From Spinacia oleracea (Eukaryota; Streptophyta; Magnoliopsida; Caryophyllales; Amaranthaceae): a stretch of 64,000 nucleotides of DNA. The stretch lies in the NCBI RefSeq assembly GCF_020520425.1, contig NC_079487.1, positions 133,322,385 through 133,386,384 of the forward strand, read 5' to 3'. Position numbers and translations under genes: made by a program. The notes under the pieces are model-generated. The model saw nothing but the letters and a program-made list of their open reading frames with translations, made no database searches and was not told the DNA's origin. Shown here piece by piece: positions 9,512 through 57,160 of this stretch (the first letter of the stretch is position 1; each line of letters starts with the position of its first letter).

Positions 9512-12500
9512 ATGTGTCCTGTTGAGGGAAACCAGAAATCTAATCATACTAATGGCAATGGTGTTACAACCAATGGTAATTGCAGTGGCGGCGGCAACAA
9601 CGACGTTTTCATTAGCGTCGACCGGTGAGTCTCGATCTTCTTTGCTTCTATTCCGTTTTTTTTCCCGTTACAGTAACACCACGTACATGCACGAGATAAA
9701 AGTAGAAAAAGAAACAAATCTTTTTTATTTAATTCTCTATTGTCTTGCTATAGCTAGTACCACGTCATCTGTATGTTAGTGTAACAAAAAAAATTGAGTA
9801 ATTTCAGTGTTCGTTATGTTTTAATTTTAGCGATGTGTTATTTTTATTAAATGAGCGAATTTTCCCCTCTAACTTTAAAAGTTTAAAATAAATTAGAACG
9901 GATGAAAATAGTGATCATGCATGCATGCATCAAAGTATATGCTATCGACCACTTTCATTATATTATTCAGAAATAAAAAAATTCCGTTACATGCATAAAA
10001 TATTTTAATTCGGTAAACAAAAAAAAAGTACTTATATACTAAAATTTATCATATGTTCATTGCTTTAATTAATTTTATTACTCCTAATAACACATTCAAT
10101 ATGCTTTATTTTATTTCCCTCAAAAAAAAAATATGCTTTATTTTAATTTAATTTTTATTTCGGACGATGCAGAGGTGATCCAAAGATGTACTACACATTT
10201 TGGAAGAATGTGGACGATAAGTGCACGGTGACAATTAAGGCGTCGGAGCTTATGAGTTACTTTGCCGATCTTGACCAGGGCGGCGTCTTCTACCAGCTGC
10301 CGGAGTTCAGCGCCGCCGTGCACCAGGTGCACCGCGTGGTGGGGAACGCCGTGACTGAAGGACGGTATATCATCGGAGGAACAGGATCATCTCAATTGTT
10401 CACCGTTGCCCTTCGTGCCTTGGCCTCAACCGTGAACAACACTAACACAGATAATAATCTTAAGAAGAAAAGGCAAATACCAGTTGTTTGTGCTGAGCCC
10501 TTTTACTCGGTAACTTTTTTTCCCTTTCATTTTTTTTGCATATTAAAATTAGACAACACTTACCCTTTGTTCTATTCACCTGGTCTAGTCTGAATTTTCT
10601 TAGTTTCTGATCAATTATGTTCTTGTTGGTTTGAATGTTTTCTGTGAGTGCTTAATGCCTTTTTGCTTTAATTTTCCGGTCTAATTTGCTCTTATTTGTA
10701 TGGTCTTATTTTATACTTTTTTCTGGTCCAATTTTTGTGTATTTTACACTATTTACATATTCTATTTTCACTATTTTTGGTGATTTAAATATAAGATAAA
10801 ATATAATCATGTAGGACTGATAGATTCGTCTCAATTTGTATTTTTAAAATATTAACTTTTTATAATTTTTGCTTAAAGAGAATTAAAGATAATAATGATT
10901 AAAGTTGTGCATAGCCATACGTGAAAATGGAAAACGTTGCAAATATTAAAAATCGGAAGAAATATACGATAAGAATAAGGTATTCTAGTCGTGATTTTTC
11001 TGGTGTGGTCTAATATACTTGTACTCCGTAACTCCGTGTGTTACTGAAGATGAAATTGCTACCTACATATTGAACGATCGATAGATAATTATATAGATGA
11101 TGGTACTCCTAATCTCTTGTATGTTGCATGCACACAACATGCAATCGATTGGATTTCACTTCTAAGTAGCGGGGAAGTAAAATAGTTTTGCGGCGATAAT
11201 TGATTTTAGGGGGATTCGAACTTACAATCTGTGTGTTCGGGGTGGGAGTACTTAATTAGCGGTCATCTCTTAATTAATAATATTTTTATTATTTCTCAAT
11301 CAATGCTTTATTAAATTAGCATGATATGTCAAATAATGAAGTGGCTAATAATTAATAAGTTAAATTAATTAAATGGAAGCGAGAATAAAGGCTGTGTGGA
11401 AGGTTAGAAATGAATTGAGTGACTTGTTTTACATGTTACAATCCGTGTCTGTTGCTGGTGTCTTTGCTCACTTTATTCTAAACATTTGCATGTAACATGT
11501 TTCAATTTCTTCCAACTTAATTATTTGTTCCAAATATGGAAAAAGAAAATAAAAAGAAATAAAATATTATATTACTTTTATATAACTTAATTTTGCAATT
11601 ATTCTACTCCCACTACAAAAATTTGTATATTTATGACAACCTAATAACGACGGGTCAAAAATCCCGTCACAAAAGCCTTTTGCGACGGGGCTAACAACCC
11701 AACAAAGACGGGAACAACCGTCGCAAATGTCTTTTATGACGGGTTAACGACGAGATTTTCCATTTACGACAGCCCCCTTTTATGACGGGTCCGCGACAGG
11801 AAATCCTGTCGTTAATCAACGATCATTGGCCTTTAGCGACGGGATTTCCCGTCGTTAATGGTACAATTTCTTGTAGTGTCCATATAGAAATTAGTACGTA
11901 CTTTAGAATTTCATTAATTCTTCTTTTCGAAAAACACTCTTATTTAAAGGTGATTACATCGGATTAAAAGTTAACTCAAAATGAAGTTACCTCGTTATCT
12001 ATTTTCTAGTGATAAAATTTTCATTTTAATAAAAATTACTTAATTATTCAAAATCTCTAATAATGTATAAAGGTAACAATTTAATGCTTTAAAATGTTTA
12101 TCCATCATTTTTTTTGCAAAACATAAAAGTTAATCAAACATATTAATTTACAAAACACTCAGTAAAAATGATTCCGATATATAATAAATTTATTGTATAC
12201 CACATGCGGCGTGCATAAACTTTTGTTCGAAAAATATTCACCATATATGATGCTAACGGATTCATTCACATGAATCACATCCGACTTTATTTTTAATCTC
12301 TTTAACAAAAGACCTAGAATTAAAAATGTGAATGGGGAATAATTTTTTTTGTAACCTTTATTACTAATCACCGTCTTTGCACTTTAATTGCTTGTCCATG
12401 ACCAAGATTTTTTTTAATGAGGAAAAGTTATCAAATTTTAAGAATCTAATTCTAATGTCAAGTGCTTGGCAAAGCAATATAATTTAGTTGGCTACTACTA

Positions 12501-15020
12501 TACATAGTATGACAATGATTATTAAAATTATATACGGAGATGTATATACTAATGAGATGTGGCTTAGTGGTTAAAATTGAACGTTTGTATACAATAGATT
12601 ACAACCTTATAGGTTTGAATCTCTATCCTTGATTTGTACTCCGTAATTGATATTGTCCTTGTGGCTCATTTACAACAGGGAAAAAAAAAACCAATGACAT
12701 ACATGTTTAAGGATGGTTTGTCTATAAGAAAACATTTATGTCTAAAATTATATTGAAGCTTTAATTTGATGAAAGAGTATTAATTATGAAAAGTTTACTT
12801 TTAAAAAAAACACATGCAAATTTGGATGCATGCTCTTCATTTGAACAAACATGAGCACATGATCATGTGTGCAATTAGACGAAGCATTGATGGTCCTCAT
12901 GTTAAACTGCCTGTTCTTCTTTATTTCATATTCCTTTCCAATTTATGTTAACCATTTTGATAAGTTTTCTCTTAATTGAGGTTTTTCTATTTTTTTTCAT
13001 GCATAAAGAACCATAGTAAATTAATAATCAGTCACACGACATCTACTGATCAACTAGGGTATCTTAGCTATATTTTTTTACTGAATTGAGCCTAGTTATT
13101 TTTCTTTTTAATCGAACAACACTAACGTTAGTTAATTTAAAGTTTTTACTATGATTATTAGTATATTGTTGACCTGTTGTACCTTATTTCCGGGTGCATA
13201 TATTGGCAGTGCTACCAAGAAGCATTAGAGGAAGAGAAATCGGAGATATACAAATGGCAAGGGGATGCCAAAACCTTCGACGAGGAAGGCCCTTACGTTG
13301 AGGTGGTGACAACACCGAACAACCCCGACGGTAGCATCCGCGAGCCGGTGGTGAAGAAGGAAGGTGGGTTGGTGATATGTGACCTTGCTTACTATTGGCC
13401 TCAATACACACCCATCACTACCCCTGCTGATTATGATGTTATGTTGTTCACCTTATCTAAGGCTACTGGCCATGCTGGTTCTCGTGTTGGGTAAGCATCT
13501 TCATTTTTTCTCTAATTTTATGAAAAACTCTCAATTTTCATTGTTAGATTATGCATTGCTATTGTTGTTACTTAAGTCCTTGTTTTGGTTACAAGTTGTT
13601 GTTTGTTAGCTGGTTTGAATAGTCGATTATATTAACTGGTTTGACTAGTTAATTGCAATAGTTGATTTGACTAGCTGATGTTATTAGATTATGTATTGCA
13701 ATTGTTGTTACTACAGGTGGGTTTAGTTACAAGCTGTTGGTTGTTAGCTGGTTTGACTAGTTGATTGCATTAGTTGGTTTGACTTTTATTTATTTATTTA
13801 CTGCATTAGCTAGTTTGACTAGCCGATTGCATTACCTGATTTGACTAACTGGTTGTATCATTATATTGCATTACGCATTGGCATTTGTTGTTACTATGTC
13901 GTGTGTGGTTACAAACTATTGGTTGTTAGCTAGTTTTACTAGTTGATCGCATTAGCTGATTTACTAGTTGATTGCATTAGCTGGTTTGACTCGCTGGTTG
14001 TATCATTAAATTATGCATTGCATTGTTTCATATTGAGTACTATTGTACTACAAATGATTTCTACACATTATGTAGTATGGCATGAAACTTTTATGAGGGA
14101 TTATTATATGGGATACAAACTAAAATTTTGATTATTGTGATCATTGTTTTGAAGATGGGCGATTGTGAAGGACAAAGAAATTGCAATGAGGATGATAAAG
14201 CTAATGTCATTAATCACCATAGGAACTTGTCATGAAGGGCAACTTCGAGCAACAAAGATACTCGAGTTTGTTGCTGATAGCTATGCGCCCCTTGAGAATG
14301 GTAAACTCAATTCCAATGGTAATGCTCATGTGGTTGAACAACCCTCAGAGAAGTTCTTCGAATTCAGCCACCGTGTGTTGGCTGATCGATGGAAGAGGCT
14401 AAGAGCTGTCGTCAAGCGTTGTGGTGTCTTCAACCTGCCTGAGTACTCCCCTGAGTATTGCAATTTCATGAACAAGAACATTCATCCCAATCCAGGTATA
14501 TATCTTCATAAACACCGAAAACTCAAAACCAGACCTGATCATCACGAGCCCGACACAAAAACTAGCGGGTTTGGGCAGATTTTTTTAGGCCCGATCCTAC
14601 CCCGTCCGATTTTTAATTTTTTGGGTAGGTTCTGGGCAACTCAAAATTGCAATTTTAATTCTAAATTTGCCCCGTCCAAAATGACCTAAAAGCCCGCTAT
14701 TTTGGCCCAAAATAACGGGTTGTGGGTAGAAAAAGAACAACATGACCCGCAATTCGATCAGGTCTATTCAAAACTGACAATGATATCGAACATTTTTTAT
14801 ATGTTTGATCGTATACTCGCGTCTTTTCTGGATTGCAGCATATGCATGGATGGAGCTTAAGAATGGGGAAGATGCGGAAAAACTGATGAATGAGCTGAAG
14901 ATCCAAACAAGGGGAGGACCGAGATTTGGAGTGTCTTCAAAGTACACTAGGGTTAGCATGATGGAGTGTGATGACACCTTCAACCAGCTCTTGGACAGGC
15001 TCTCTACTCTCGAGTCTTGA
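9512..15020 (+). CDS. TAA1: L-tryptophan--pyruvate aminotransferase, TAA1/TAR type (auxin biosynthesis)
   Basis: Exons: 9512-9624, 10173-10509, 13210-13490, 14155-14495, 14839-15020, giving 417 aa with all junctions in frame. The family converts tryptophan to indole-3-pyruvate, the first step of the main auxin route, in the cytosol or at the ER. Visible marks are [10 protein letters not shown] (39-48), [45 protein letters not shown] and the PLP-lysine block [12 protein letters not shown] (Lys234); RVSM near the end carries the conserved Arg. There is no signal peptide, EGF-like domain or membrane segment, so it is closer to TAA1/TAR1 than to TAR2 or alliinase. The Asn/Gly-rich head (residues 5-30) is not conserved. 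Oddity: where TAA1 has GVSKESQ this protein has GTCHEGQ (267-273). Introns 2, 3 and 4 hold a CACTA MITE, a minisatellite and a GC-rich MITE. Identity is firm; whether it is TAA1 or TAR1 is not. Confidence 0.93.
11190..11280 (-). mobile_element. SINE-like scrap in TAR intron 2
   Basis: On the minus strand AGTTCGAATCCCCCT is close to a pol III B box. The rest is too worn to bound. Confidence 0.3.
11611..11878 (+). mobile_element. CACTA-type MITE in intron 2 of the TAR gene
   Basis: 268 bp, starting CACTACAAAAATTTG and ending CAATTTCTTGTAGTG, with TCC duplicated on both sides (11608-11610 and 11879-11881). Same orientation and same internal order of ACGACGGG words as the copy at 8941-9219. Confidence 0.9.
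12557..12690 (+). mobile_element. Degenerate tRNA-derived SINE in TAR intron 2
   Basis: GTGGCTTAGTGGTTAAAATT resembles an A box, GGTTTGAATCTC a B box about 40 bp on, and an A-run (12680-12690) closes the block. No convincing target-site duplication. Confidence 0.45.
13545..14025. repeat. Minisatellite with higher-order structure in TAR intron 3
   Basis: Units of about 26-27 bp like TAGCTGGTTTGACTAGTTGA + TTGCAT repeat with variation. Larger blocks, each opening GGTTACAARYTRTTG and TTGTTAGCTGG, start near 13588, 13727 and 13909. Uninterrupted runs alternate with AT-rich spacers. Confidence 0.8.
14519..14780. mobile_element. GC-rich MITE-like element in TAR intron 4
   Basis: The ends pair loosely (ACTCAAAACCAGACCTGATC against GATCAGGTCTATTCAAAACT). 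The inside is rich in GCCCG and CGGGTT words, unlike the AT-rich intron around it. A decayed relative lies at 6120-6360. Probably hAT-related; no target duplication found. Confidence 0.5.
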
Positions 15021-16333
15021 GTAGACAAGTAATATTATACCATATATAAATAAAGCGAACTTAAGATTTAAAAAAAGAAAAAAGTATAGGAAATGTTTAC
15101 AATGACTACAGTTTGTTTTGTAGGCATGAGATTAAAAAGATTTGCACTTCTAAAATAAAGGGTGCATTTTTTTTTTTTCATTGGTAAAAGTTTTTGTGAT
15201 TGTAGTCATTGTAAAGTAGTGGTAGAAGTATGATCATCCTGCTATAGCGGTGATGTTTGGTTTTGTCATGGTGGCTTCGTAAGTTCGTATGGTGCTATTT
15301 GTTGTAAGACTTAAAAGTGTTTTTTGTCTAAGTTTTGTTGTGTTTTTCGATCATTTTCTTTAAATAAATAACGCAAGAAAGGCAATTTTGCGAACAATTC
15401 ATGTTGTCCTTGTAAAACGTAAGGACATAATGACTTCAATTGCTTGTTGGTTCAGTAATGATTGAGACTGAACTTGGTAGGGAAAATCCGTGTTCGATCC
15501 CCCGCAACAACAATTGGGAAGCGTCTGGAACCTAACCACACAGAACTCGACCCGAATCTGGATTAGCCCTAAGGGCGTGCTAACACCAAAAAAATAATGA
15601 CTTTCAGATTCTAGTTAAGTTCTTCACCCTCATAGAATTATAGGCTCTTCACCCTCAAAGTTAAGGTTACATTACATCTAGCACTTTACTCTCAAAGGAA
15701 GAGAATGCTTTCAAAAAAGTAGGAGTAATGTTGATGTTGATATAAAAAACCCAATCTCAAGGAAAAAACCCATCATGTAACAGCCAACACTCACTATTAC
15801 TCGTTAACTTAGAATACGAGTGCAATAACATTTGCCAAACACAAATGCAAGAACTATCTCTACAATTTGTGCACAGAACCTTGAATAACTGTTACAGATC
15901 TGACGTTGAAACGGAATCTTTGAATCGGGAGGAATATTTGCTTCACATAATTTCAAAGTATTGATCTACTAAAATCTTAATCAACACAACCAAAAGGTAG
16001 ACAATTAGATAGAATTACAAATTTCATAACACAGTCACAATCTTCACATCAGTGAAGGAAAATTCTGCACAAGAACTAGCAAAAGATCAAAAACATAATG
16101 ATACCTGCGGAGGCTGTTCTTCACAATCATTAACTCTCAAGTGTATGGAATAAAGATAATGAAAAGTCAGATTCATCAACTCGAGAAGGAGATTATGCCC
16201 ACAAGAGACTGTGCTCGGCCAATAATAAGAAAACCAAAGTTGCTTCATGCTTCGTTTGTGTGCAACTCTCCAGATTTTGTCCCAAAATATAACAAATGAA
16301 AAAAACCGTATAGCTTTTGGATCACCGGTTCAG
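15021..16333. other. Space between the TAR and AP-1 mu stop codons (convergent genes)
   Basis: It holds the two 3' UTRs, which face each other, and one SINE (15437-15593). ATAAATAAAG near 15045 could serve as the TAR poly(A) signal. Nothing else is recognisable. Confidence 0.6.
15437..15593 (+). mobile_element. tRNA-derived SINE with 10-bp target-site duplication
   Basis: The block has an A box (TTGGTTCAGTAATG), a B box (TGTTCGATCCC, about 15491-15501), a body running CAACAACAATTGGGAAGCG...GATTAGCCCTAAGGG and a short A-tail. ATAATGACTT is duplicated at 15427-15436 and 15594-15603. It resembles SINEs I recall from Amaranthaceae. The exact duplication suggests a fairly recent insertion. Confidence 0.88.
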
Positions 16334-19300
16334 TCACATTAACCTCAGCTCATATTCGCCAGCCATTGTTATGTACCTCACCCATGGAAGAGCCTGATAT
16401 CCACTCTTTTCAATGATTTTAAGATAACGAACCTGCAGATTGAATATTACAGATTAATAGTCATCACAACTGTTTTGAGCTCAAAGAACAATTAGCAGAG
16501 CTAATAAAGAAATAAAACTGCACACCAAACAAGGAAGTATAACAGACAATAGGACTGAATACAGTAATCAAAACTGACAATAGGACTGAATACAGTAATC
16601 AAAACTGACAGTAGGAAATACAGTAAAAAAACCAGACAAAAAAAACAAAAAAAAAAGAAGGGCCAAATTAGTCAGAAAATGGAAATTAATTCTAACACTG
16701 AAGATATAAACCCTAAAAATTCAAGAGATCAGCCAATTCAGAAATTAACAAACAGCAACATGCAGGGATAGAGTTATAGACCATGGACATCTAGTTCTGG
16801 TTAGTGGTTACTACAAGATAAGGTAACAATATTACTCTTATGAAGACGACCAGATATTAATCATAATATCCACTTACCAGGATTAAGAACACTATTTTTG
16901 ACTGGAACAAATATCTGGTTTCCATCTTATAGTTGGCTATCTACACCCAACCCTTACCAGGATTGTGAAGAACACTATTTTTGACTTTGGCTTCTCGAAT
17001 ATTGAACTAACTTGTCCTCTTACTTTTCTCCGGGATACACCAAAGTTTATACTTTGTACTTGTATTTCATATGGAGATATGGATACTTGAGCACTTGGGA
17101 TGGATTCACAGAGAATACATAGCGGACCTTTTTGGAAAGAGCGCGAAACTATCTATCACAAAGAGCAACTAAACAGTATACATGATCAACAATAAGGTTA
17201 ACCATCAAGTATGAAAATATCTGGTTTCCATCTTATAGTTGGCTGGCTATCTACACCCAACCCTTGATGGGATATGCACTTCTCTATCATTCATTAGTAT
17301 ATTTGCCTAAGCAACAGACATCCATTTATTTATCATAATTACATGTCAGTTCAGTTCCACAAACAAGCTCTTTCATCCCCAGTGGCACCATTACAACTTT
17401 TACAATGCTGCTCATAAAAAATCACTTGGCTTTAACTAGGCATGTAAGAACAAAGACATGACCAGAGACCCAACCCTAAAACTGACATGAAAGAAGGGTT
17501 TGAACAGCATTTCCTTTACTGAAACCCGCGAGTACCCAAACCCTAACTATCTACAAATTCTTGAGTCAGGGTGGATTGCATTGCAGGATGTAGTTGTGTG
17601 GAAGGGCATTTTGATTTTCTAGAGTTAGATGAAGTAACTTATGCTGGTCTAGAGTATTTTGTTTTAAAATGACGTTGATCTTCTCACATAAGTATGTTTT
17701 CTAATGTTGAAATTTGAATTAACTTGGTCAGTATGTGATATTTTGTCTCACGTTTGAATGTTTTACTTGCATTAAAAATGTGTAAAATGGTGTATCTAAG
17801 TCAGTTAAATTTCATTTGACGTTGATGAATGATGTCTTACAAGAAGCCAGCAATCATCTTACGACGTTTATTTTCATTTTTCAATGGTGTAGAATAGAAA
17901 TGGCTTTAATTGAACAAAAATAAGTCTAAGTCTCTAAGCGGTCATTTAACACAAAAATTTAATTTAGTTGAGTCAACCCGAAACCATAAACAAAAAATAT
18001 AACCTTCACCTAAAAGAGACCCAACTTGTAAACTTATCCAATCCCAGAAGTTCAGAACCCCAAAACTCTGAAAAGAACATAAAAGTTGGGACGTGACAGA
18101 GCTTGTTCCTAAAACATTTGCTTCTTCCTTTTCTTGCATATGCACTACAATTGCAATAGGAACTCAGATTCAAATCTAAGAAATTACTTTCGATTGTTCC
18201 TATTTTTCCATGCCACTTGAACAACTTCTTGCTTACCTGGCTGTTAACACTACAATGACAAACTAACTCTTCATCCTCTGTACAACTACAGCATGTACAA
18301 ACAATTTCCTACCAATAGGTGAACACACAACGACAAGAAGCCTTGATAGGAGTATAGGACCATTAGACTTCCAGATGATGTGGGGAACTCATTTTGGAAA
18401 TTGGGAAAGGTACAAACTTGAATGCGGGATCAAACCATAAGCTACATCAATCACTGATAAATCCAAATCCTAAGTCTAATCACTTTCATTGGCTTCTTTC
18501 TACAAAAATACTGATATACCAGTTACTGTTCCCAACTTCAATGCATATCATTGTACCACCAACAATTACCAGACTACTCTCCAGAAAAGAAACGGAACTA
18601 GTGCAAAGTTTTCTGACATTCTAAACATCAAAGTAACCATTACAGATGGCACTATTTTGTATGGGGTGGAGACACAGAAAGATGACCCAACAGAAACATA
18701 ATAGGACAAAAAATAACCAACAGAAGCCAATTCTGCACATTTAATTCTGGTTCCAGACACTGAACCAAATCGTCAAAATGAAACCTTACTATATACTCCC
18801 TCCGTCCCTTTTTATTTGCCCCATATTCCTCTTCTTTAGGGTGTCCCCTTGAGGTTGTTTTCCCGCCATACCCCCTCTCTCTCTCTCTCCCTTGCTCTCC
18901 CTCCCTCTCCCTCTTCCCCTCTCCCTCTCTCCTCAAGGGCCCACTTTATCAACTCGTGTGCACATTTTACACCGAATTCTTAATAAAGTTTTTTTTGGAT
19001 ATGGGGCAATCAAAAAGGGACGGAGGGAGTATGAGCCCAAAAAGAAAACAGAAAGAGAAAAGGTTTTTCAGATTCTAATAATCAGAAATTACTAGCTCAA
19101 TATTAATAGTGTATGGAGGGATTGATAATATTAGATACAGCAGTCCATCACTCTCAGTGATAATGTAATGACAGTTATTGTGGCAATGATACTATCACAA
19201 TAGCTACAGTGCTAGTTCATAAAAATTTAAAATATTGACAAATTGAACATAGACAATCATCCGTGATCAGGACGTAGAGAAGGAAATATAACTTATTACT

Positions 19301-22300
19301 AAGTTTTCTATTTGCCTAAGCATATCACTAGCCTAAACAAAAAAGACAGATATAGCAAAAGAAAATCCTACAGTAATACGTACTCTATTTTTATATTTCC
19401 CGATGTCTCCGTTTTAACCTAAAGACTAAAGATACTAATCACAACTCACAACTCACAAGCCAAGCAAAAGACATAGCAATTAGCAACTAAGAGCCAGACC
19501 ATGATGCAAGGAAAGGAATTACTGCATTTAAAAAGAAGCTCATAAGATTTAAACCTGGATTCCAGAAACTGTAAAATATGGGATTTCAAATTTCACTCGT
19601 ATAGGAGCTTTTCTTTCAGGAGTTGCCTCTTCGCTTGTGATGCTCGGAAGACTAAACTCTGCCCTCAACATGTATTCCTGAAAGTGTTCATTACAAAGAA
19701 TTCAAGGACAATTGACAGCATATTTACATGCAAATCCCTATTGGATTAGAGGTATGGCATAAAAAGGCAGCTTGATATCCCGACTTGTTACCTTGCCACC
19801 AGGGAAAGATTTTATCTTCCAGACTAAAGCATCCTTCTCAGGTGCATAAGCAGCAGACCCCATTGACGTGCGAATATTTGGATTGGTGGCATCGGCAGGC
19901 ACTGGCAGTTCAATCTCAACATTTGTCGCAGTGCTACAGAATTGGACCCGATAAGCAGAAAGCTTAGATAATGTACAGTTTACACTTAAACAGAGGGAAA
20001 AATAATGCAAAAGACATGACTGAGCAATAGATAAAACATTATTAAAGCCATACCTTCGCTCCTTAAACTGGCTTCTTGATTTCACTGTTATCTCAATACG
20101 ACTTCTGGAGTGCCTCTCAATCTGGGCTTCAACCCAAATCAGAGGCTTCACCTGAAGTAAAACAACATCCAAAATTCCAAATCATTATAAAAGAAGAAAG
20201 GATTATTATGTGATGTCTTCAGGGAAAAATGGAAAGTTGGCAGTGAACCTGAGTACTGAGCCTATATGTCATGAGATCAAAGGACCCATCTGGTGGTACA
20301 AATGATATGGTCCTATCATTTTCGAAACGGGCTAAACGTACACACCTATAGCAAAAGGGAAGCATGGTCAATAAATCAAGCAGATCATACCAAATATATT
20401 TCCAACCTACAGACTATCAACATAACAAATCACAAATAGCAGCAAATGTAGCTACTACAACTCAGCCTTAAACATACTGATGAAATTTGATGTCGTCCAG
20501 GTCGATAGCCTTGCCCTTAGTAGTTCGTCCTTGAGCCTCCAGTAATACTCTATCGTTCAGGCCTAGTTTACATTCAGGCATCCCACTGACATAAAGAACA
20601 CCAAATTTTAGTGTGTAACCACCGAGAGCTCAAATGGTAAAAAGAAGTTTTGAAATTCAAGGGTTAATCAATTAAATTCAATATTTTATACATTTTGCAC
20701 CAAAGGAGATGACACTCCTGGGTGTTTGTTACACTAAAAAGCTGGAGAGAAAATACAGAGTATCTTTAATATCATGGATGATAGATAAGCAGTATGGATA
20801 CTAACTTTACAATTAAAAAAGCAACGTTAGAGTTATAGAAAAATAAAAGCGATGCATCAAGAACCACACTTGTTAATAGTATAAATGCATGTGATACTAA
20901 CTGAACAAGAACTACAACCCCCCCCCCCCCCCCCCCTCCCACCATCCAAGAAAAAGAAAAAGGATCAGTTTCACAATCAACCACAAATGCGCACATGACA
21001 CACAGAAAAGAATCATTAATAAGCAGAACCTGTCATTATTTTCTCTTCCCTACATTTCCCCTGTTCTTGAAACCATAGCTTGGGCGCAAAACAGTGCATA
21101 AGCTACTTTTAGACTTTATAACATGAAATTGGATTCTGTCCGACTGCCAAATATTGATCAACCGACTTTCGAAGGGTGCAGTGTACTTCTCTGACTTGGA
21201 TTCTGTTTTGAATGATATTATGTCATTGTGTTCTCATTTTAATTCCATAAATTGGTCTCATGTAAGAAGGGACGGCAACACTTTGGCTCATCACCTTGCT
21301 AAGCTAGTTCCTTTTGGCGTCGAACAAATTTGGGAAAATCATTGTCCCCAAGAGATCGCCTCGTATGTAACATTGAACAATTCGTCCCTTGAATAATACA
21401 CTAGCTTACTTTTCCCCTCAAAAAAAAAGAAGTATTGACAGTTCGACGACTTTGATCTTATTTTAGTTCTGTAAACAAGAATCCCAGATTTTTACCCCAC
21501 CCCATCCTTTCCATCCAAAGAAGGGATGATTTAGTGATGCATTGTTGTAACATAATAAGGGCAATAAATCTGGGCTTATTTTGCTGAAGGAAAATAAGGC
21601 AAACAAAATGAAGGGCATTTAGTGCACCTCAAATATGTTCTCATCTTCAATGCCCCAACAACATCTGATCTAATGATTTGCCCATTGCTGTTTACAAGTA
21701 TATTGACACTCTCCACAACATCCAAGAATACCTGTAAAAAATAGGAGAAGTGCTTTAATGTTTCCGGGTTGACAAAGCTAATAAAAAAATAGAAACCCAA
21801 ACTCACCTCATTCTTCTTGTAAGATATTCCTTCACTACGCCATGAAACTGCATTTGTCACAGCCATAGGAGGCCTCTGTGTGACTTCCATCCTATAAGCA
21901 TCAGTTTTAATAAACTCACTCAGGATCTTTGCTTCTGTGAACTGAGGGTAACCGAAATCCATAATTTCGTCAAGTAACTCGTACTGCAGATGAGGCATAT
22001 TATCAGTGCATCAATCTCAACTTTACCAGTATCGTCTTAAGTAGAGAGAAAATACCTCTTACCACTACAACAAAGTTATCCCTTAGAGATTCCTCTTCTA
22101 GCTCTTCAAAATAATGCTTGAACACCTGCATAGGAAAGTCATTCCCAGATAAAGGATCAATTAAAGAGGGCAGATCTTTGACAAAGGAAAGATGGAAATC
22201 ATACAGGAACAGAAAGATGAACATGGAATATAAACCAATGTACAATGATTACCAATGGAGCTTACATCAACTACACGGTGAAGAAAGAGAATAAGACTAG

Positions 22301-23588
22301 CAGCATTGCAGTTTTGCCTTGTAGCAATAAGTAAATACACATTGTTGTGTTGTATAAACATGTATGTAACCCCATTATCGTGCACAACTGGATCCTGAGA
22401 TTGTGGATCACCCTGAAACATGCACCAATGGCAAAAGTAAAAAGTGAGATCCATCTACCAGGCATGCCAAAAGAAAGACAGAGATACAGGTTATCAAAAT
22501 ACTCATTTACTATGAACTGGTGTGATGTATAACCACTTATATAGAAACCCTTGCCCACTCATACAGATTGGACAAAGAGACCATTCCAAAGGAGGGTAAA
22601 GTAGCCAAAAATGCCTCGTAGTAGTTAGGGAAAATCACCAAAAAGACCCCTCAATTAGTCAAGGAAAACAAAAAGTTCCCCCAAGAGATGATCCTTTGGT
22701 TCACTCGGGGAGATAAACTAATCTATTGTTTTGCGTCAAATAAGTGCAAATTCCTCACATAATTTAGTGTCTTAACTCTTGGACACTTCAAACAAACCTA
22801 CAGACATAATCTAATCCTTGTGTCAAGTTGGAATTTTCGAACAGCCCCAGAAAATCCTTTGTCCAAACTCCGAGTAACATTCATCACTACACAAAACCGC
22901 CCGAAGATCTCAAACACAAAACTTTCTCACAATCCGATAAAACAAAGGAACCAGCTTACCAGCCAATAAGATTAAAAATCATCATTCTGATTATTCAATC
23001 CCAATTCACAATTATTGACACACAATCACAGATGAGCAACAATGTGCATTACCAATCTAACACTGCTAGCAGGAGAAAATGATATCTGCAAGCGATCTTG
23101 AAAGTGCCATCGGATTCCTAATTGGACCAAATTCTCAATTTCATTCAACTATTCAAGCATAAGTTACATTAACCAATTCAAACTACACCGTTCCAATTGG
23201 GATCTAGTTCTCATAAAACAGCGAAAACACAAGCTTTATTGTTGAAAAAAGCTCAACTTAAAACCCCAAATTACGCATAAACGCCAGTAAAACAACTAAA
23301 ATAAACGTAAATTATCCACATCAAACATTCAAAAATGCAAACAATCTCAATTTCAATCAGATCAAACCAAAGCAATACAACTAAAAATCAAAATTAAACT
23401 TCATTCAACTCAAAAACAAATTAACAAAAAGAAAAGCTAAATAGATAGATCAGAAAAACCTCTTTCTCGATGAACTTAGTGAAGAATTTCTCAGCTTGAA
23501 CCGCTGAAACATCACCGCGATAATCCCGCCATATGAGAACTCTACCTTTAATGTCTAAAAGGAACAGCGCTGAGGCCGCTCCCGACAT
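16334..23588 (-). CDS. AP1M2: AP-1 clathrin adaptor complex, medium (mu) subunit
   Basis: Eleven exons on the minus strand: 23460-23588, 22266-22412, 22063-22125, 21807-21983, 21628-21731, 20478-20585, 20249-20345, 20054-20151, 19792-19933, 19555-19677, 16334-16432. They give 428 aa, the length I recall for Arabidopsis HAP13/AP1M2. The protein works at the trans-Golgi network/early endosome, where the mu subunit binds tyrosine (YxxPhi) sorting signals on cargo. The N-terminal longin-like domain (MSGAASALFLLDIKGRVLIW, about 1-140) is followed by the mu-homology domain (about 165-428) with SQFKERSTATNVEIELPVP and the C-terminal YITMAGEYELRLM. Every residue block fits the family and no break is seen. 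Intron 10 is 3.1 kb with a Stowaway MITE and local duplications; intron 6 carries a LINE tail. The nearest upstream gene is PHS1 on the same strand. Confidence 0.96.
16876..17275. repeat. Interlocking local duplications in AP-1 mu intron 10
   Basis: TATCTGGTTTCCATCTTATA plus GTTGGCT..CTACACCCAACCC occurs at about 16909 and 17218. CCAGGATT..GAACACTATTTTTGACT occurs at about 16877 and 16958. The pieces overlap in order A-B-A'-B', which suggests repeated slippage or template switching. Confidence 0.7.
18796..19029. mobile_element. Stowaway-type MITE in AP-1 mu intron 10
   Basis: The ends are CTCCCTCCGTCCCTTTTTAT and AAAAAGGGACGGAGGGAG, flanked by TA (18794-18795 and 19030-19031). 234 bp, with an inner CT microsatellite (CTCTCTCTC, about 18870-18935). 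Confidence 0.88.
20918..20936. repeat. Run of 19 C in AP-1 mu intron 6
   Basis: Uninterrupted poly-C. Its complement is poly-G on the transcribed sense of the minus-strand gene. The exact length may be a sequencing artefact. Confidence 0.85.
21060..21428 (+). mobile_element. 5'-truncated LINE 3' end with RNase H-like tail, in AP-1 mu intron 6
   Basis: Antisense to the host gene. From about 21140 it reads DCQILINRLSKGAVYFSDLD..., then WSHVRRDGNTLAHHLAKLVP and a stop at about 21396: the C-terminal half of the RNase H-like (RVT_3-type) domain found at the end of plant L1 LINEs. An A-run (21418-21428) follows. The 5' part is missing, as usual for LINE copies. Confidence 0.75.
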
Positions 23589-25436: not shown

Positions 25437-28400
25437 CTATATCGTGAAGTCGTCTCCAAGTTCAGTGATGACCTCATTCACTTTGCTCACCATATCTGAA
25501 ATTGAACAATAGCACAACCAATTAGCACAAACAGATGAAAATTGAAACAGAAGTAGATAACTACTCTTTCTTGATAGTGAACTCAAGTCTTAAATCTAGA
25601 ATCACGCGACTGGAGAATTCTTCATTATGGAGTATATGATAACTAAGAGATTAAGCCCTATCAAACACCATACAGGTATAATACAGAGTTTGAAACTTTA
25701 CTAGTGTGTTGGGACTGACATGCATTGAAATCCCAAGAAACTATCAACCATCTTTTACCTACTATCTGAGTTTAAAAAGTACCTAAATCGTCAATGAAAA
25801 ATAAAAAATAAAGAACCTAGAACACGATTAATGTTAACGAACAAGCAATGCAAATCACTATCAGTGCCTCAGTGGTTATATTAAGTTCTGCATCCAAGAA
25901 TTAGGAGACTAATAATAGTTTATGTTAATGAAGCAGGAAAATAACTGCACTAAACAACCAACAGACCCTGCAATTCTCTTACAGAAAGCTTTAACAAACA
26001 GCATGACACACAGTAGGAGCTAATGCTAAGAGATACTTACCGAGGAAAGTTGCATCTTGCATATATTGCTGCAGGGACATACAGAGTATTAGTGAAGAAA
26101 AAAACTGAATTACTAAAGGCCCTAATTTGATAAATTCTAACAAAATGATAACAGGCTCCAATAAGTATTATATTAGTATAGCAAATCAAGTCAAGAACAA
26201 ATACCGAAATCTGAGCTTTCAGATCAAGATCCTGCGATCCAGGTATAAGAGCAAGTGCTGAATTTCCTGCAATACAGGATAAAAGACATTATACACAGTT
26301 GAAGGAGAGTGAAGTTCTTCTTTAAGGACAAAAGGGTGTACCCTACCTTTTTCCTGCTCAGCAGAGCAACTGGAAACAAGTGAGGTGAAGCGGGGAGGAA
26401 ATGTGTCAACATTGCTTTGAGAATCAACAACTGTATCTAGGGGCAGTGGATCCTCCTCATCTTCATTGTACACGTTTTTTGGCGAGGTAGAATCATAAGG
26501 GGTCATGATGCTAGATGTGTCAGGCCTGCAGATTGATATGGTAAATATAACTAATTGCGTAGTCCACTCACAATTAAGGGAATATTCCAAAATGCAGGGC
26601 ATGTAAATCATAACTATTACCTATATGGATGAGCTATCTCGGACTGGGAAGATGTTGCAGATATGACATCAACAGCTGAAGGTTCACCAGGGATTTTATT
26701 TGAAAGGGCATCCTGCAAATAAAATAAGATAATTATCCTACAAAAGCATTTCCTCAACACAAATGCATCACATTAAAAAAAGAATTTGGTTTTAGATTGC
26801 ACCTCCAATGCTATTATAAAATCTTGTACTGCTGAGACTCCTGAAAATTTCATGGCAAACTTTTGCTTCTGCAAATAAATCAATTCATTATAAGTTGAGT
26901 TTTGAGGCAGAAGCAAATTCATGGATAGAAACAAATCATGGTCAGCTACAAGTTAATTGATGTATATTACTCTGTGGAACATATTAGTTCATGAACCTTT
27001 TTTTTTTAGGGATATTAGTTCATGAACTTCATATTAATCAGATTTACAGAATTTGAGGTATATTTTTTCAGTGTGACAAATCTCGACTTACAAAAGTAGA
27101 GATGAAAATGTGCTTCCAAAATGCAGAACCATGTTTCTGAGATCGAAGCAGGCAACCCATGTTTCAACTACTTTAAAGAAATCCCAGATCATTTTTGCAG
27201 TTACAGTTCAAAACATACAAGGATTGCAGTTTCATTTAACTCTGAATCAAACCAGTCACTCACATTGAATGGACACTTAATCTATAAAGGAAAGCCATCT
27301 TAGCATTTGGAGTGCAAACAGATAGCCTACCTCATCTGAACTATCAATGTAGCTCACTAAGACAATTAAGCTGCCTCGAGTAGGATCTCCAGAGAGACAT
27401 GAAATTTGAGGCCAGACAAACTGCAGATTGGAGATGAAGTGCTCTTCCTGCAAAAATGACCTGAACAATTAATTGACATTCAAGGCTCAGCGGCTTGGGA
27501 AATTGAAACTAAATCCTCAATTACTCAGCTATACGGCTTGAGTAACTTTCGATGCTTAACTATGGTCACTAGAACATCATACCAGAAATAACACAACCTA
27601 AGTACTTGTTCAGGAAAAACTCGCCTCAAATGTGAAAAAATAACTGATGTTGGTATATCATGTCTCCTTGCAGCTATCTTAGCTCTCAAGTCTCAAGATA
27701 GCAAGTCAGCAAGCCAAGACAGCAACAAGGAAGCTTACAACTGATCCCTTAAATTCCGAAATCAGTTAGGCATTCAGTTACTACATCATCATGTATGATC
27801 AGCTCATATGCTGCGTTGTACAGCTAGCTTGTTTATGATTGGCTCCCTAGTTTCTAGGAGTGTTCTGATTGGCTGTAACACCTCATCACTGTTGTATATA
27901 AGCTCAAGAATACTGCTGTAATAATTTAGTTCATTCAATACAATAAACACTTAACTTTCAGTTTCAGTTTCTCTCTTAAATTCTCTCTAGAAGTTCATCC
28001 AAGATGATGAACTTTAACAACTGGTCTAACAAGTCTTGTCATGAACTTCAAATGCTCAATCATTAGTTAGCAACAGCAACAGTAATCACAAGCTGCTGAC
28101 AGTTTTTCAAAAACTCGTAACAGATTAAAAAAACTTTGGTTAAAAATGCATCAAATGAGGTGACGAATCGGAGCAAACTTAAAAGAAAAGTAACCACTAT
28201 TATGTAATCAGATCATCCTCTAATTCAACTCCATACCACTAAACTCAATCATCTCATAAACCACGTCTTCTAATTAAAAGTTGAGAGAAAGAAATAAACC
28301 CCCTAATGACTTGCAACAAATTTCAATATTCAAGTCGGATAATCCAAATCCATGCTAGTTGTATATTTTCGGATCATTGTGTAAAGAACAAATATATCTA

Positions 28401-29216
28401 GAAGCTCAAAATAACCTCTCAAAACGGACATTTCACATAAATTCAAAAGAAATCACAAGCATAAAAATCATTGGAAGTCATTTCAGTATTTCACCAAATT
28501 ACAACTAATGGCTAACTTGTTCTTCAACACATCAATTTCGAAGTCATTTCAACAAACAGATCGTCATAAATCAGTAGACAGTAGTCACAACATTTCTCAC
28601 AGAAGAAATCCAGATTATCAGAACATAAATCACTTGCAATTCGCAAGCGCAAATGCAACCTAACAACCAAATTTAACGTGATTATCAAAACAAAAGTATA
28701 TCAAGCAAAATTGAACAAAAAAAAGGCTCGTTATCGCAAAGCAATACTCTAGCAACAAAATTTCAACTGATTTTAAGGTTTCTCTGCTTCAGAAATCAAA
28801 ATTTAAGCTCAAAAATCCACAGAAATCCATCAACCATCGCAGATTACAATTTAACCTAACTGCAATTCTCAATTGCATCGTCATAAAGAGAGAAATAGGA
28901 GAGAGCGAGAGAGAAAACATACGATGATAGTTCCTTGAAGGGAGACAGTGAGGACGGAACCATCGGAGGAGGAGCCGTCGGTGGCTGGGTGGAGAGCGAC
29001 GGTGGACATTCCAGAAGACGTAATCCAAATCGGCTTGAAGTGACATAGCTTGAGAGGAGTGAGACAAGACGAAGGTGAAGTAGCGGTGGTGACGACGGTG
29101 GTTTTCGCGAGGTAAGATGAAGGATAAGTGAAGCATCGAGCGTATTGAACCTTCCAATGCCATGGATTCTGAACTTCACTCGTCGCCATTGACAACTGCT
29201 TAAGAGCTCCCGCCAT
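25437..29216 (-). CDS. PHS1: POOR HOMOLOGOUS SYNAPSIS 1 (meiotic pairing protein)
   Basis: Eight exons on the minus strand: 28923-29216, 27331-27447, 26803-26868, 26621-26712, 26347-26525, 26205-26266, 26041-26068, 25437-25495, giving 298 aa. PHS1 is needed in plants for correct homologue pairing, and maize PHS1 is linked to nuclear entry of RAD50. Family marks: the start MAGALKQLS, then WHWKVQYARCFTYP, LQFVWPQISCLSGDPTRG, KQKFAMKFSGVSAVQDFI (PH-like core, about 20-160), a Ser/Asp-rich linker with PPRFTSLVSSC, and the conserved tail DLKAQISQYMQDATFLDMVS...ELGDDFTI. The tiny seventh exon (28 bp) is easily missed by gene finders. A second ATG nine codons in (MATSEV) is possible; I chose the first because family members start MAG. 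Intron 1 holds a solo LTR. A MITE sits about 70 bp upstream of the start codon. Identification rests on recalled family sequence. Confidence 0.9.
27648..28019 (+). mobile_element. Solo LTR in PHS1 intron 1
   Basis: 372 bp with TG...CA ends (TGTTGGTATATCATG to GAACTTTAACA), flanked by ACTGA (27643-27647) and ACTGG (28020-28024), a 5-bp target duplication with one difference. It has a TATA-like TGTATATAAGC near 27893 and AATAAA downstream. No internal region is present, so it looks like the product of LTR-LTR recombination. It lies antisense to PHS1. Probably Copia. Confidence 0.72.
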
Positions 29217-37237: not shown

Positions 37238-38167
37238 AAGGCTCTCTGAAATGTTGTTGTTTTGTGTACATTAAAGCCAAATGTGTAGTTTAATTCTTTC
37301 ATTGTTTCCCATTTTGTAATAGTCTGCTAATTTGGTATCCTTGAGATAGTGGTTTAGGCTTCAAGGTTACAATTTCTTTACAAGGCTGAAGACCGACTGT
37401 TATTTTTACTTTTGGCTCATCTTTCAGGAGTATTTTCCTAACTTGGAGAGTCAGAAATTTTGTTACCGTATTGTAAGATTGGAAATTGTATATGCATTTG
37501 ACAGTTGCAATGACACATTTGTTTTGTGATACTTAGGAGCATCAGTTCGGCCAAGGATAAAATGCATGATAGGGGTCATTTATGGAATTCCGGGATCTTA
37601 TATGGAGTATTTTCGGAATCTTACGGGGAGTATTTTCGGAATTTTACAGGGAATATCTTAGGCTCTGTTTTGTTTGACTTATTTAATACAAAACAAGTTC
37701 AGTTAAGTTCATAAAAAATAAGTTTTTTGTTTTTTACATCTCATACACAAATAAGTTTATTTAGACAAATTAAGTTTGTTATCAGATAAAATAAGTTCAA
37801 ATAAATTCAGATAAGTTAAGTTACATTCAGACAAGTTCAGATAATACAAGTTCAGACAAAATAGGTCCAACAGAACGGAGCCTTAAAGTTTATTGGGGGT
37901 TGAAGTTACTCTTGCATTCAGAATCAAGACTGGATTTTGGATAGATTGAAAAAGAATTTGAAGACTATATTTATGTTATCTCATAGAACTTGGCTGTTTA
38001 CACAACTACTAAAATGCTGCCAACAATTTACAATCTATGAAAGACCAAAAAACTCTTATAGATATCAGAAAAATATGCAACAAATCATATTGACAACACA
38101 AAATCGTTCCAGGCGAGTTACAACCCAGTCTATGCTCTATTATTATGTGCTAATTTTAGCAACATGG
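37238..38167. other. Short gap between two convergent genes
   Basis: 3' UTR of the TrpD-like gene, a 27-bp near-duplicate (GGGAGTATTTTCGGAATYTTAC, near 37600-37645), the MITE 37661-37882, then the 3' UTR of the PRS gene on the other strand. No further gene. Confidence 0.6.
37661..37882. mobile_element. PIF/Harbinger-type MITE (GAACTTATCTGAA family)
   Basis: 222 bp, from GGCTCTGTTTTGTTTGACTT to AGGTCCAACAGAACGGAGCC, flanked by perfect TTA (37658-37660 and 37883-37885). The inside repeats CAAGTTCAGATAA-type words. It sits where the two 3' ends meet. Confidence 0.88.
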
Positions 38168-41100
38168 TTAAATCTGAAGAGCAGCAGCTATGGATCCGGC
38201 TAGGCTAATGACTTCAAAAGGAGGCCTGTTCTTCACCATCTTCACTGTCAGGGGACAAGAATCTGTAATCCAGAAGTGTGTCATCCCCTCCTCAGGGCAA
38301 CCTGTGGGAGTCGGATTGTGAAAATGCAAATACACACAATTTAACACCAAAAACACGAAATAGTAAATTGACGTCTACTGTTGCTAAAAAAACGCCACAA
38401 TTGATTAAGAAACAATTATCCTACAAGTACTTATTTCACATCTCCAACCATACCAATTGTATTTCTTTAGAATTATCAATGAAGACTGATATTGGAAAGT
38501 AAATAAAAGTTCGATTTACTACTTCGTATTATTAGAAAGTCATTTTTTTGGGGGATGGCTGGTCGAAAAGCACATACCTGCAGTATCAGGTTTAAAGCGT
38601 TCCCATGATTTGTTCGGAAAGATTCCGTGTGTGACGTATGCACTGACCTTTGCAGCTCCATGAGCAGCCAATACTTTCTGTAGGACATTACAAAAATAAA
38701 AAAAACAAAAAAAAAACAGGACAAAACGAATATTAACACCTCTTATATCCAAAGTGTAGCCTAAAAACAAAAGAAATATAGAAACCATGATACCTTTAAT
38801 CCCATTCATTTACTTAAATAATTAATAGTCTTGTTGATTTTTTTGGATTAATTATCACTGGAGTTGAGATGCTACTGGGATAAGAGTAGTTGCCAGAGAT
38901 GGCATATAACAACAACGCAAGAATGAGATTTAAAGAAGAGAGATACACAGTAACATAGACGGCAGATGAGATCCAATGCATTAGAAAGCAACTAAGGTTC
39001 ACAAGAGAATGTACCTGACATTCTATAAGGGTGCCACCCGATTGTACTAGGTCGTCAACAATGACAACATGACGACCTGTTGGGTCACCTTCCTTCAGAC
39101 GAACAATACGTTGATCACCTTCTCGAACTTTTGCACACACAATCTGGACATACGTTGTACAATGAGTATCAGTCATGCCAAAAACTCAAAACAGCAATAA
39201 ACTTCAACAGGATCATCCAATCCAGTCTTTTGTTTTGCAGATACTAAGAGTAAGAGCTGAATGTGTCACAGAGGGGTCATTCTGAACACTCATTAGCAGT
39301 TGAGGTAGAAACTACATGGTTGCACCTTTTCTACCCTTTCCCACTATAATGTATATGAAGAGTTAAGAGCTCAATCTGCAGCAACTCAGCTACAAAATAG
39401 TCTTGCTTAAATCTTTAAGTCCCATAAAGTGAACGGGTGGTCAGTATTTCCTTCCTCTAGTTCAATAAACAGAATAAAATCCCTCGCTGTAGCCGGATTT
39501 ATGACTACTCTTTCAACTCACTCAGACACGAGTAATGAGATGTAATAATTATCTTGTACTTTTAATGTGTTTCTTACAGGCATCAGCTATCGCTTGACGT
39601 TCAACACGTCAAGAATAATAATTGGAAAGCATTTGAGGAAGAAAAGTATTCTTGAAACATTGAATAGACAAGGCTAGATAAGCATGCGGCAATAAGTTAA
39701 ACTACATACTCGGTATATGTGAATTAAAGTACTTCAACATTATAAGTGGGAAGACATACAAGTTTCAAGAGAAGTCTTAAAAACAAGTAACATATTTACC
39801 ATAGGAAAATGTTGCAGCTGCTTATGAAACCGTTTCCATGCACCATCATCAGGAAAAGCAATAGTTATCTGAAGAAAACAAGGAAAAACACACCATAAAT
39901 ACCATGTCTCCTATTCTCACAAATTAGGTTAGAGGACATAACTATTTTGAGAAGATCATTCAAGAATAAATAACATTGGATAAACAACAAACCCTACGTT
40001 GTCAGAATCAGGAAGTTGTTGCAGCTTCTTTTTTAGCAAAGGAATTCCACTCTCGAAGCATGGCAATATATTATCCCCAAAGTAAAATCTTTCCTAACAC
40101 ATGTAAAAAATAATCAAAAAATATAAGTTACACTATAGTAATGAAAAGGCGTTATGGTGAGGATTGCATAAGAGGGGGCTGCAATGCAAACCTGCAAGGC
40201 ATGTATATCGAATGTCACCAAGCTGGTAGGTCCTTCCCTTGAAATTGGTATATTTGACAAAATCCTAGCAAGAGTGAAGGCAGTTGCAACATCCCCTTCA
40301 TCTTCCATCCGCTCAGAAGTTCCAGTAGGAAAAAAGGGAAGGACAAGTTTGAAGGAGGCAACAAAAAGCTTTGGCAGAGCATATATCACTGACAGTTGCT
40401 CAAATATTACACCAGGGGAACTGAATGATGCCAAGAAAGCGACATGTTTCCCACGTATACCTTGAGCATTAGATATGAACAGGTTCGGGAAGCCATCTTC
40501 AAAAGTCCTAAACACAGAATAGTTATAATACTGTGAGATAACCCACCTAAGAATGTCTACCACTTTGAGAGATGCTAACGCAAAATGGTGATATTTCAAG
40601 TCTACGTAATGAATCAAAGTAGCGCGGAAAATTAGGAATCCTAGGTCAGGGAAGATAGAAACCCGACAAGTATTTCCAGTTTTTAAAAATGATGTGTGAC
40701 TCTCCAGGAAAACTAACTCTTTCCGAACTCAGCTCTAAACCCAACTAAAATTTCTTCATACTTACAAATGTTAAAGGAAGTCATTTCCCTTCTAGTAGAA
40801 TCAAAAATCAAGGTTGCGTACTACAAAAAATTACCAAGGTGGATAGCAAACAACCAAACCAAGCTTTTCGGAGTTGATGAGGTCAGCTATACCGGCAGTT
40901 CGCCACAACGAATCCAGCATCTAAAATCCATTCAAGAAGATTGTAAGAGTTCAAAAGCTGAAATCAACTAGTGTAGCTGAAATCAACTTATCAAGTATTG
41001 CTCTCATATGCTCCCATTCTAAATCTTGAATATTCAACTTTTGAGGATAGCATCATCTTTAACCAAATGTCATAATTTGGAAGTTGCAAACTTGAAATGC

Positions 41101-41928
41101 TCTTTACTCCCCAACTAACGTTTCTCATTATTATTTTAGGATCTCCCAAAAAGTTCCAATTTCTTTTAACAGCAAATCAAACAAGAACTTCATTGGTTGT
41201 TTGAGGAATGCATGCTTCTTGTAGGAGCAAACGTGTGTATATAGTTTTCTCACCAAACTATATACAAGACCTTCAATGTTGAACGTTTTGTACATAGTTT
41301 TCTCACCAAACTACCAAAAAAAAATACTTATTTTTTGGTAGGTAAAAAGTCATATGTAATTGAGCAATCATTATCAGGAAGCAATTTCAATTGAGCAATC
41401 ATTATATCAGGAAGCATTTTCCCACATTCCTTTTCCGAATAAACCTGTCAAAAACTGAACCAACCAATACTAGTATACTACTACATTATAAAATTAACTC
41501 ATTGTTAAACCAGAAATTATACAAAAGTATGAATAAACTCATAGAATGTACCTCCAGGAGATGCTACGAAGTTGAATTGCGTCTGATTGAGCGGCGATTC
41601 TCTCAGCAAGAGCTTTAGTTTCAGGGCAATAGAAAAGGCAAACCTTCTTCGAAAACTCGACGGAATTCTCCTGATTTGAAGACATTTGAAATCTGCGAGA
41701 ATTGGGGACGATTTGAATTGGGTTTAGTTTAGAAATGTGATGATCGACATTCATCCATTTCCGTCGGTTTTGGAAATCGCATCGGAATGTGGGTAATCTT
41801 CTTCTGATCAATGGAATTGATGGGTTTGAGGAAAGAGAAAATGAAGAAGAGGGTTTTAGGGTTTCAGAAGAAGAGATGGCGGGGTTTTTGCAGGGTTGGA
41901 GAAGATGGCGGTGGGGGGTTGCTGCCAT
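38168..41928 (-). CDS. PRS3: Ribose-phosphate pyrophosphokinase (PRPP synthase), class II, with N-terminal extension
   Basis: Seven exons on the minus strand: 41552-41928, 40192-40507, 39998-40093, 39800-39868, 39015-39143, 38578-38677, 38168-38301, giving 406 aa. The enzyme makes PRPP from ribose 5-phosphate and ATP for nucleotide, histidine and tryptophan synthesis. Visible: [48 protein letters not shown] (catalytic-loop region), [12 protein letters not shown], and the PRPP-binding loop [17 protein letters not shown]. This set matches the phosphate-independent plant class II enzymes. Residues 1-81 are Ser/Pro/Arg-rich and nearly free of acidic residues, which suggests plastid or mitochondrial targeting and PRS3 instead of cytosolic PRS4. 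An in-frame Met82 (MSSNQENS) at the domain edge could yield a cytosolic form. The upstream flank is partly inside a tandem duplication (41979-43434). Confidence 0.94.
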
Positions 41929-46473: not shown

Positions 46474-46556
46474 GTTTATGACCTGAGCTCATATAACTGG
46501 CTGCTGTTTAGTCTCTCTTCTTGAGTCGAGGGATATTAGCTTGAGTATTGGCCAAA

Positions 46557-52076
<5,520 letters not shown>

Positions 52077-56616: not shown

Positions 56617-56623
56617 TATAAAA
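56617..56623 (+). promoter_or_regulatory. Probable TATA box of SMR8
   Basis: TATAAAA lies 205 bp before the start codon, after a CT-rich stretch and before ACCCCCGAAACATTTC. Placement would give a 5' UTR of about 170 bp, itself rich in CT. Inferred. Confidence 0.6.
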
Positions 56624-56821
56624 CCCCCGAAACATTTCAACCCCCTTTACTCTTCTCCTTCTCCTCAAAAACGCGTTACGTTTACTTTCTCTCTCCAAAT
56701 TCAACCCTTTAATTTTATTTTTCTTTCAATTTCCCATAAGTAAAATCAAAACCTCCTTTCAATTTGATTCTTAAAAAAACACATTAATTATTATTATTAG
56801 TCTTTTTAATAATCTACAATA

Positions 56822-57160
56822 ATGAGGTTTTCGTCGGAAAAGAAGAGTGCGAATTGGGTGACTAATACACCATTAAGAGCTCCTCTCAAACCCATTTACA
56901 CCGGTGGTGGCCGCAGCATTGATGAAGATCAGAGAGAAAATACGACGTCGTCTTCAGTGCCGACGACTCCGACTTCAGAAGGTTCTAGAATCCCCTCGAA
57001 GCTTCCATGTCCGCCGCCGCCTCGAAAGCGGAAACCTTCTTCTTCTAAGCAATTGAGGTGCAAGAATATTAACAAGTTGTGTAGTGGGAAAAGGGAGTTC
57101 TTTATTACTCCTACTGATTTGGAAGCTGTTTTCATACGCCGTCATAATATTGGCTGCTAA
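56822..57160 (+). CDS. SMR8: Cyclin-dependent kinase inhibitor, SIAMESE-related (SMR8/SMR6-like)
   Basis: Single exon, 112 aa, as usual for this family. SMR proteins bind CDK-cyclin complexes in the nucleus, halt mitosis and favour endoreduplication. Visible motifs: LRAPLKPIYT (18-27), typical of the SMR6/SMR8 group; VPTTPTSEGSRIP (46-58); CPPPPRKRK (63-71), the basic proline motif; and the conserved end REFFITPTDLEAVFIRR (91-107), the cyclin-binding-like motif. The first ATG of the frame is used. The N-terminus is shorter than I recall for Arabidopsis SMR6. The choice of SMR8 over SMR6 rests partly on neighbours: PRS3 and PHS1 are next to SMR8 in Arabidopsis. The gene stands alone, 4.7 kb from GGAT and with more than 6 kb of gene-free DNA to its right. 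Confidence 0.88.
   Translation: MRFSSEKKSANWVTNTPLRAPLKPIYTGGGRSIDEDQRENTTSSSVPTTPTSEGSRIPSKLPCPPPPRKRKPSSSKQLRCKNINKLCSGKREFFITPTDLEAVFIRRHNIGC

Follow-up and report, generated by a model that had tools for sequence, protein, structure and literature searches.

A spinach gene neighbourhood from TAA1 to SMR8 into which two Arabidopsis gene runs interleave in order

Background

Interleaved single-copy regions have been described as Class 1 fractionation regions and are handled by a consolidation algorithm (PMC3436819). In that work, the comparison of poplar with grape gave 2,356 fractionation regions and the comparison with cacao 2,297, with a mean of 2.24-2.42 genes per region (PMC3436819). 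Here we describe a locus of Spinacia oleracea, a window of 64,000 nucleotides on contig NC_079487.1 (hereafter C1; C1:133322385-133386384), in which seven genes, from the TAA1-like aminotransferase gene to an SMR8-like gene, stand in an order that combines two gene runs of Arabidopsis. The window was studied together with its flanks and with searches of the whole genome (894,210,420 bp in 242 contigs).

The locus resembles the Class 1 regions in that regions of a duplicated genome interleave into a single region of a less duplicated one, with spinach as the reference genome where grape and cacao served in the poplar work, and it is longer, since the window alone has seven genes and the flanks raise the number to about a dozen. 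Four Arabidopsis segments are concerned, and two gene families are kept in both runs, so the locus departs from a pure Class 1 region. With the comparisons of Arabidopsis alpha and beta segments with genomes that have undergone the gamma event only, the locus shares the 4:1 relation, its genes being kept in one to three of the four copies as far as the codes considered here go; it differs in being one locus only, with undated segments. The process is thus the well-known one of fractionation against a less duplicated genome, of which this is a good and longer-than-mean example, and not a new phenomenon. It offers a worked, testable case of an ancestral gene neighbourhood divided among duplicated segments, and positional orthology for TAA1/TAR1, TAR2, LDAH1/2 and the LOTR1-like genes, which aids the transfer of function from Arabidopsis to crops of the Caryophyllales.

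Two Arabidopsis runs in one spinach region

With intervening genes and repeats omitted, the order on C1 is GWD1 - neprosin - PPR - LDAH - TAA1 - AP1M - PHS1 - TrpD-like - PRS3 - GGAT - SMR8 - MATE - RPL27A; this order, the identities of its genes and a partial duplicate on a second contig, C5, are direct observations on the assembly. For the window itself, a sequence-only reading had proposed TAA1-like (+), AP1M (-), PHS1 (-), TrpD-like (+), PRS3 (-), GGAT (+) and SMR8-like (+), and every coordinate and strand, as well as the order, was verified. We take TAA1 to be At1g70560, GWD1 (SEX1) At1g10760, the MATE gene At1g23300 and the PPR gene At1g60770, and we assume that the Arabidopsis segments pair as At1g106xx-107xx with At1g607xx-608xx and as At1g232xx-233xx with At1g705xx-706xx.

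The remaining codes were recovered from papers: SMR8 is At1g10690 (PMC9129000), PRS3 At1g10700 (PMC10493611), PHS1 At1g10710 (PMC9957857) and TRP2/TrpD At1g70570 (PMC10142997), and the AP-1 mu genes are At1g10730 and At1g60780 (PMC9301471). ACLA corresponds to At1g10670 and At1g60810 (PMC9479425), the ribosomal proteins with an L18e/L15P domain to At1g23290 and At1g70600 (PMC7759809), LDAH1 to At1g10740 and LDAH2 to At1g23330 (PMC12712439), and of the four homologs nearest to LOTR1, three are the neprosins At1g10750, At1g23340 and At1g70550 (PMC8794472). At1g70580, At1g23310 and At1g23320 appear in a survey of the TAR family, where the names GGAT and TAR1 are not attached to them in the text available (PMC9811149). 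The codes At1g10690, 10700, 10710, 10730, 70570, 70580, 23310 and 23320 of the earlier reading are found in papers, and searches that included its At1g70560 did not turn up that code; its division of the genes between two Arabidopsis regions has to be replaced by one among four segments, the fourth being marked by At1g60780 and At1g60810.

Written in spinach order, one run reads 23340-23330-23320-(70570)-23310-23300-23290 and the other 10760-10750-10740-10730-10710-10700-10690 (At1g codes), and the two interleave, in order, into a single contiguous spinach region, with the four codes of TAA1, GWD1, MATE and PPR taken as above. The neprosin and LDAH codes adjoin AP1M1 in one run and TAR1 in the other (TAA1 in the case of 70550), and the putative spinach orthologs of both occur once on C1, between GWD1 and TAA1. 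That both runs have them, and at the same end as in spinach, is therefore the pattern expected of two duplicated copies of one block, an argument that single-copy genes alone could not give.

We therefore consider, with a probability of about 0.9, that the core of the block was already present in the ancestor shared by spinach and Arabidopsis, that spinach keeps the unsplit order and that the separation seen in Arabidopsis is secondary. The earlier proposal of one ancestral block, duplicated and then thinned in the Arabidopsis line, finds support in the retention of neprosin and LDAH in both runs, in the flanking members that lie in the expected order and in the adjacency of TAR and AP1M on C5. 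According to this scheme, a block from GWD1 to RPL27A would have been present in the common ancestor and retained unsplit by spinach, and the Arabidopsis line, whose doublings after gamma are the beta and alpha events, would have doubled it twice more (hence 4:1), with single copies disappearing afterwards, one at a time. The pair At1g106xx-107xx/At1g607xx-608xx would have kept GWD1, AP1M, PHS1, PRS3 and SMR8, the pair At1g232xx-233xx/At1g705xx-706xx would have kept TAA1/TAR1, TrpD-like, GGAT, MATE and RPL27A, and neprosin and LDAH would have persisted in both; we infer the assignment of each split to a particular duplication event. The literature was also searched for codes of one run, or of the two runs mixed, cited together; in neither search did a paper contain two of the six codes, and we do not assert that the case is new to the literature.

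Identity of the seven genes

The TAA1/TAR-type tryptophan aminotransferase gene (9512-15020, +; positions without a contig name are those of the window) has five visible exons, and its protein matches PF04864 (E 1.5e-117) and, as best PDB entry, Arabidopsis TAA1 (3bwn, E 3e-99). It is followed tail to tail, across a gap at 15021-16333, by the gene of the AP-1 complex mu subunit (AP1M; 16334-23588, -), composed of 11 exon pieces and matching PF00928 (E 5.8e-80); the best PDB match is AP-1 mu-1 (E 1e-175, versus 8.5e-94 for AP-2 mu). PHS1 (POOR HOMOLOGOUS SYNAPSIS 1; ~25440-29216, -) was recognised by PF25349 (31.1 bits, cut-off 27) and by tblastn with the Arabidopsis protein (sequence from PMC9957857), which gave E 7e-12 for one exon.

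The identity of the TrpD-like (anthranilate phosphoribosyltransferase-like) gene (31803-37240, +) is weak, PF02885 reaching 25.4 bits, slightly below the cut-off of 26, and the PDB anthranilate phosphoribosyltransferase 9ucw matching with E 0.0026; a second TrpD-like copy was sought across the genome at E<=1e-3 and none was found. The ribose-phosphate pyrophosphokinase gene of PRS3 type (38168-41715, -) is identified by PF00156, by PDB phosphoribosyl pyrophosphate (PRPP) synthetases (E 2.5e-9) and by exon hits in the genome search. The gene of glutamate:glyoxylate aminotransferase type (GGAT; 46566-52076, +) matches the PDB alanine aminotransferase 3tcm (E 2.9e-122), and its reading frame closes with SRM and a stop, a C-terminus of the peroxisomal signal type that we would expect of GGAT; a relative at C1:131.84 Mb shows 50-57% identity across exon hits. 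The last gene (56822-57160, +) is a single open frame of 112 codons that appears to encode a cyclin-dependent kinase (CDK) inhibitor of SMR6/SMR8 type; since no Pfam family matched this frame, the name rests on family motifs, and no second copy was found in the genome at E<=1e-3. An Rfam scan of the window at gathering scores returned nothing.

The sequence-only reading had also noted that all genes of the TAA1 run are on the plus strand and three of the four of the SMR8 run on the minus strand. This is correct inside the window but does not make strand a marker of run, because LDAH and neprosin, kept by both Arabidopsis runs, are on the plus strand too.

A partial duplicate on C5

Searching the genome with the TAA/TAR protein gave nine exon hits at two loci only, the window and C5:6306750-6310771 (-). 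Beside this second TAR gene lies an AP-1 mu gene (C5:6301411-6305645, +), so that C5:6301411-6312271 is a partial old copy of the block with TAR and AP-1 mu tail to tail, and a neprosin gene (C5:6488226-6489732, -), one among the 40 neprosin exon hits of the genome, lies ~178 kb off. The neprosin, TAR and AP1M genes of C5 have the order and relative orientation that they have on C1, a collinearity of three genes. TAR and AP1M converge at both loci, across a gap that measures 1.3 kb in the window and 1.1 kb in the C5 copy. As TAR and AP1M are neighbours on C5 as well, one gene of each Arabidopsis run was already adjacent to the other before the C1/C5 duplication. By our own arithmetic, the chance that any of the seven other mu-family loci falls 5 kb or less from the single further TAR locus in 894 Mb is ~1e-4.

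The C1 and C5 AP1M proteins share 343 of 430 residues, and 11 of 11 matched exon pieces are equal in length. Their synonymous divergence (Ks, by the Nei-Gojobori method, NG86, only) is ~1.87, near saturation, and 80 of 141 four-fold sites differ, so the duplication is old. Of the compared neprosin residues, 197 of 246 are identical between C1 and C5, against at most 67% for three other spinach neprosins, these being the other best-scoring loci, compared over 174-192 shared columns, with the remaining loci outside the comparison.

We considered whether the C5 mu gene could be an AP-4 gene, since Arabidopsis At4g24550, which we take to encode an AP-4 subunit, lies near TAR2 by its code. At4g24550 is given as a medium-subunit gene (PMC8794472). 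The candidate was rejected, as the C5 gene matches AP-1 mu-1 with E 9.4e-174 and AP-4 mu with 3.7e-49; this typing covers the C1 and C5 genes, beside which the genome has about six other mu-family loci.

Age of the duplication and alternative explanations

A single NBR1-type (N_BRCA1_IG) locus was found genome-wide, at C5:5804179, 0.5 Mb from the C5 TAR gene, a proximity with a chance of ~1e-3 (again our own arithmetic). In Arabidopsis, NBR1 is At4g24690 (PMC3547818) and TAR2 is At4g24670 (PMC8348202); the proximity on C5 matches these codes and therefore fits the C5 segment as the TAR2 locus, which it probably is. The gamma triplication is the only ancient polyploidy named for spinach in the available text of the genome paper (PMC8668906), and the C1/C5 split probably dates from that event, a dating by inference. 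On balance we lean, with some reserve, towards C1 and C5 as gamma homeologs, in which case the TAA1/TAR1 and TAR2 branches would have arisen together in the eudicot triplication, along with a second AP-1 mu gene later lost by Arabidopsis, and their positional origin would still be visible in spinach.

Several observations weigh against these readings. The members upstream of the window are not strictly adjacent, as a tandem family and F-box, P450 and retroelement-like frames separate some of them, and an ACLA gene, one of three ACLA loci, is found 372 kb before the window (C1:132950042). Since the code At1g10670, two away from that of SMR8, predicts ACLA downstream, beside SMR8, the extended order is imperfect, and the earlier statement that there is no order break is right for the seven genes and fails beyond them, with ACLA on the other side and genes and repeats between the upstream members. 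No counterpart of the BSD gene At1g10720 caught the eye in the interval from AP1M to PHS1, although no dedicated search was made, and no GWD gene was found near C5:6.3 Mb. Moreover, the C5 TAR protein is closer to Arabidopsis TAA1 (191/347 residues, 55.0%) than the window protein is (165/347, 47.6%), so that the TAA1 label of the window gene rests on position. A tree of four sequences, without Arabidopsis TAR2, joined the window gene with AtTAA1 at a weak support of 59-63%, and the approximately unbiased (AU) test rejected neither alternative (p 0.70 for the window gene with AtTAA1, 0.39 for the window and C5 genes as sisters and 0.11 for the C5 gene with AtTAA1). The tree leans only slightly towards the older date of the C1/C5 split and is compatible with a duplication after spinach and Arabidopsis had parted.

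Part of these observations could be accommodated if the two runs had been separate in the ancestor and were united by rearrangements on the way to spinach. That would give the ACLA gene a reason to be on the unexpected side and would agree with the substantial rearrangement of the spinach genome since the Chenopodiaceae ancestor (PMC8668906). Such a history is nevertheless highly improbable: a gene-by-gene interleaving with both internal orders intact would take a large number of targeted insertions, the old C5 duplicate has TAR and AP1M as neighbours too, and neprosin and LDAH are present in both Arabidopsis runs. Only slightly better placed, and still very unlikely, is the proposal that the Arabidopsis runs are gamma homeologs, hence older than the split from spinach, and not beta ones, and that spinach joined or converted them. 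The Arabidopsis pairs could be of beta or of gamma age, which leaves some room for this proposal, but a single spinach segment carries genes of both runs and the separate C5 segment with TAR and AP1M already explains the older duplicate.

The least probable explanation, in our view, is that selection for shared regulation, and not inertia, held the genes together, be it the whole cluster or no more than the tail-to-tail pair of TAR and AP1M. The convergent arrangement at 1.1-1.3 kb in both old duplicates is what such a constraint might leave, but a conserved element sought between the C1 and C5 intergenic stretches gave no significant similarity (best E 0.18), the genes have no evident functional link and the pair is separated in Arabidopsis. 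The ancestral block, fractionated in the Arabidopsis line, thus stays our preferred reading.

Flanking genes and repeats

Upstream of the window, 200 kb of C1 were read; downstream, the reading covered the 20 kb directly past the window and the area of MATE and RPL27A, with C1:133406385-133472499 (66 kb) left out. GWD1 (~C1:133169500-133184042, +) has a PPDK_N and a GWD domain and is, at C1:133.17 Mb, the sole many-exon copy found in the genome, further GWD matches being single-exon copies elsewhere and, at C1:10.97 Mb, a relative with 40% identity. It is followed by the neprosin gene (~C1:133272000-133278480, +; PF03080, E 2.7e-79), by the PPR gene (open frame C1:133288223-133289521, -) and by the lipase-like LDAH gene (C1:133300085-133302858, +; Lip_C), the only copy found. 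On the other side, RPL27A (C1:133477109, -) is one of four Ribosomal_L27A loci found and lies 90.7 kb past the window, with the MATE gene ~4 kb before it; we calculate a chance of ~1e-3 for one of the four loci to fall within 91 kb of the block.

One exon of GWD1 (approximately query residues 345-399) recurs at C5:26590562, C5:41180244, C5:73744347, C5:111787760 and C1:38372159 with 86-91% identity, and another at C3:62912861 with 87% identity; these are captured or duplicated gene fragments, with a transposable element as a possible carrier. Just past SMR8, before MATE and RPL27A, two long retroelement-like open frames were seen by eye (64839-70250 and 77692-82383 from the window start). The repeat-rich start of the window (875-1256) resembles, also by eye, the flanks of a retroelement-like frame ~89 and 98 kb upstream, and is probably the terminal repeat of an element whose frames stop ~0.2 kb before the window.

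The tandem family mentioned above extends from ~120 to 67 kb upstream and comprises about seven open frames, 135-205 residues long, that share a core; the one member scanned against Pfam (130 residues) had no match. Further out, ~199-157 kb upstream, an array of about five frames of Kunitz-type inhibitors was found, the single member scanned being PF00197. Within the window, a 195-bp unit is present in two tandem copies, 97% alike, at 6477-6866.
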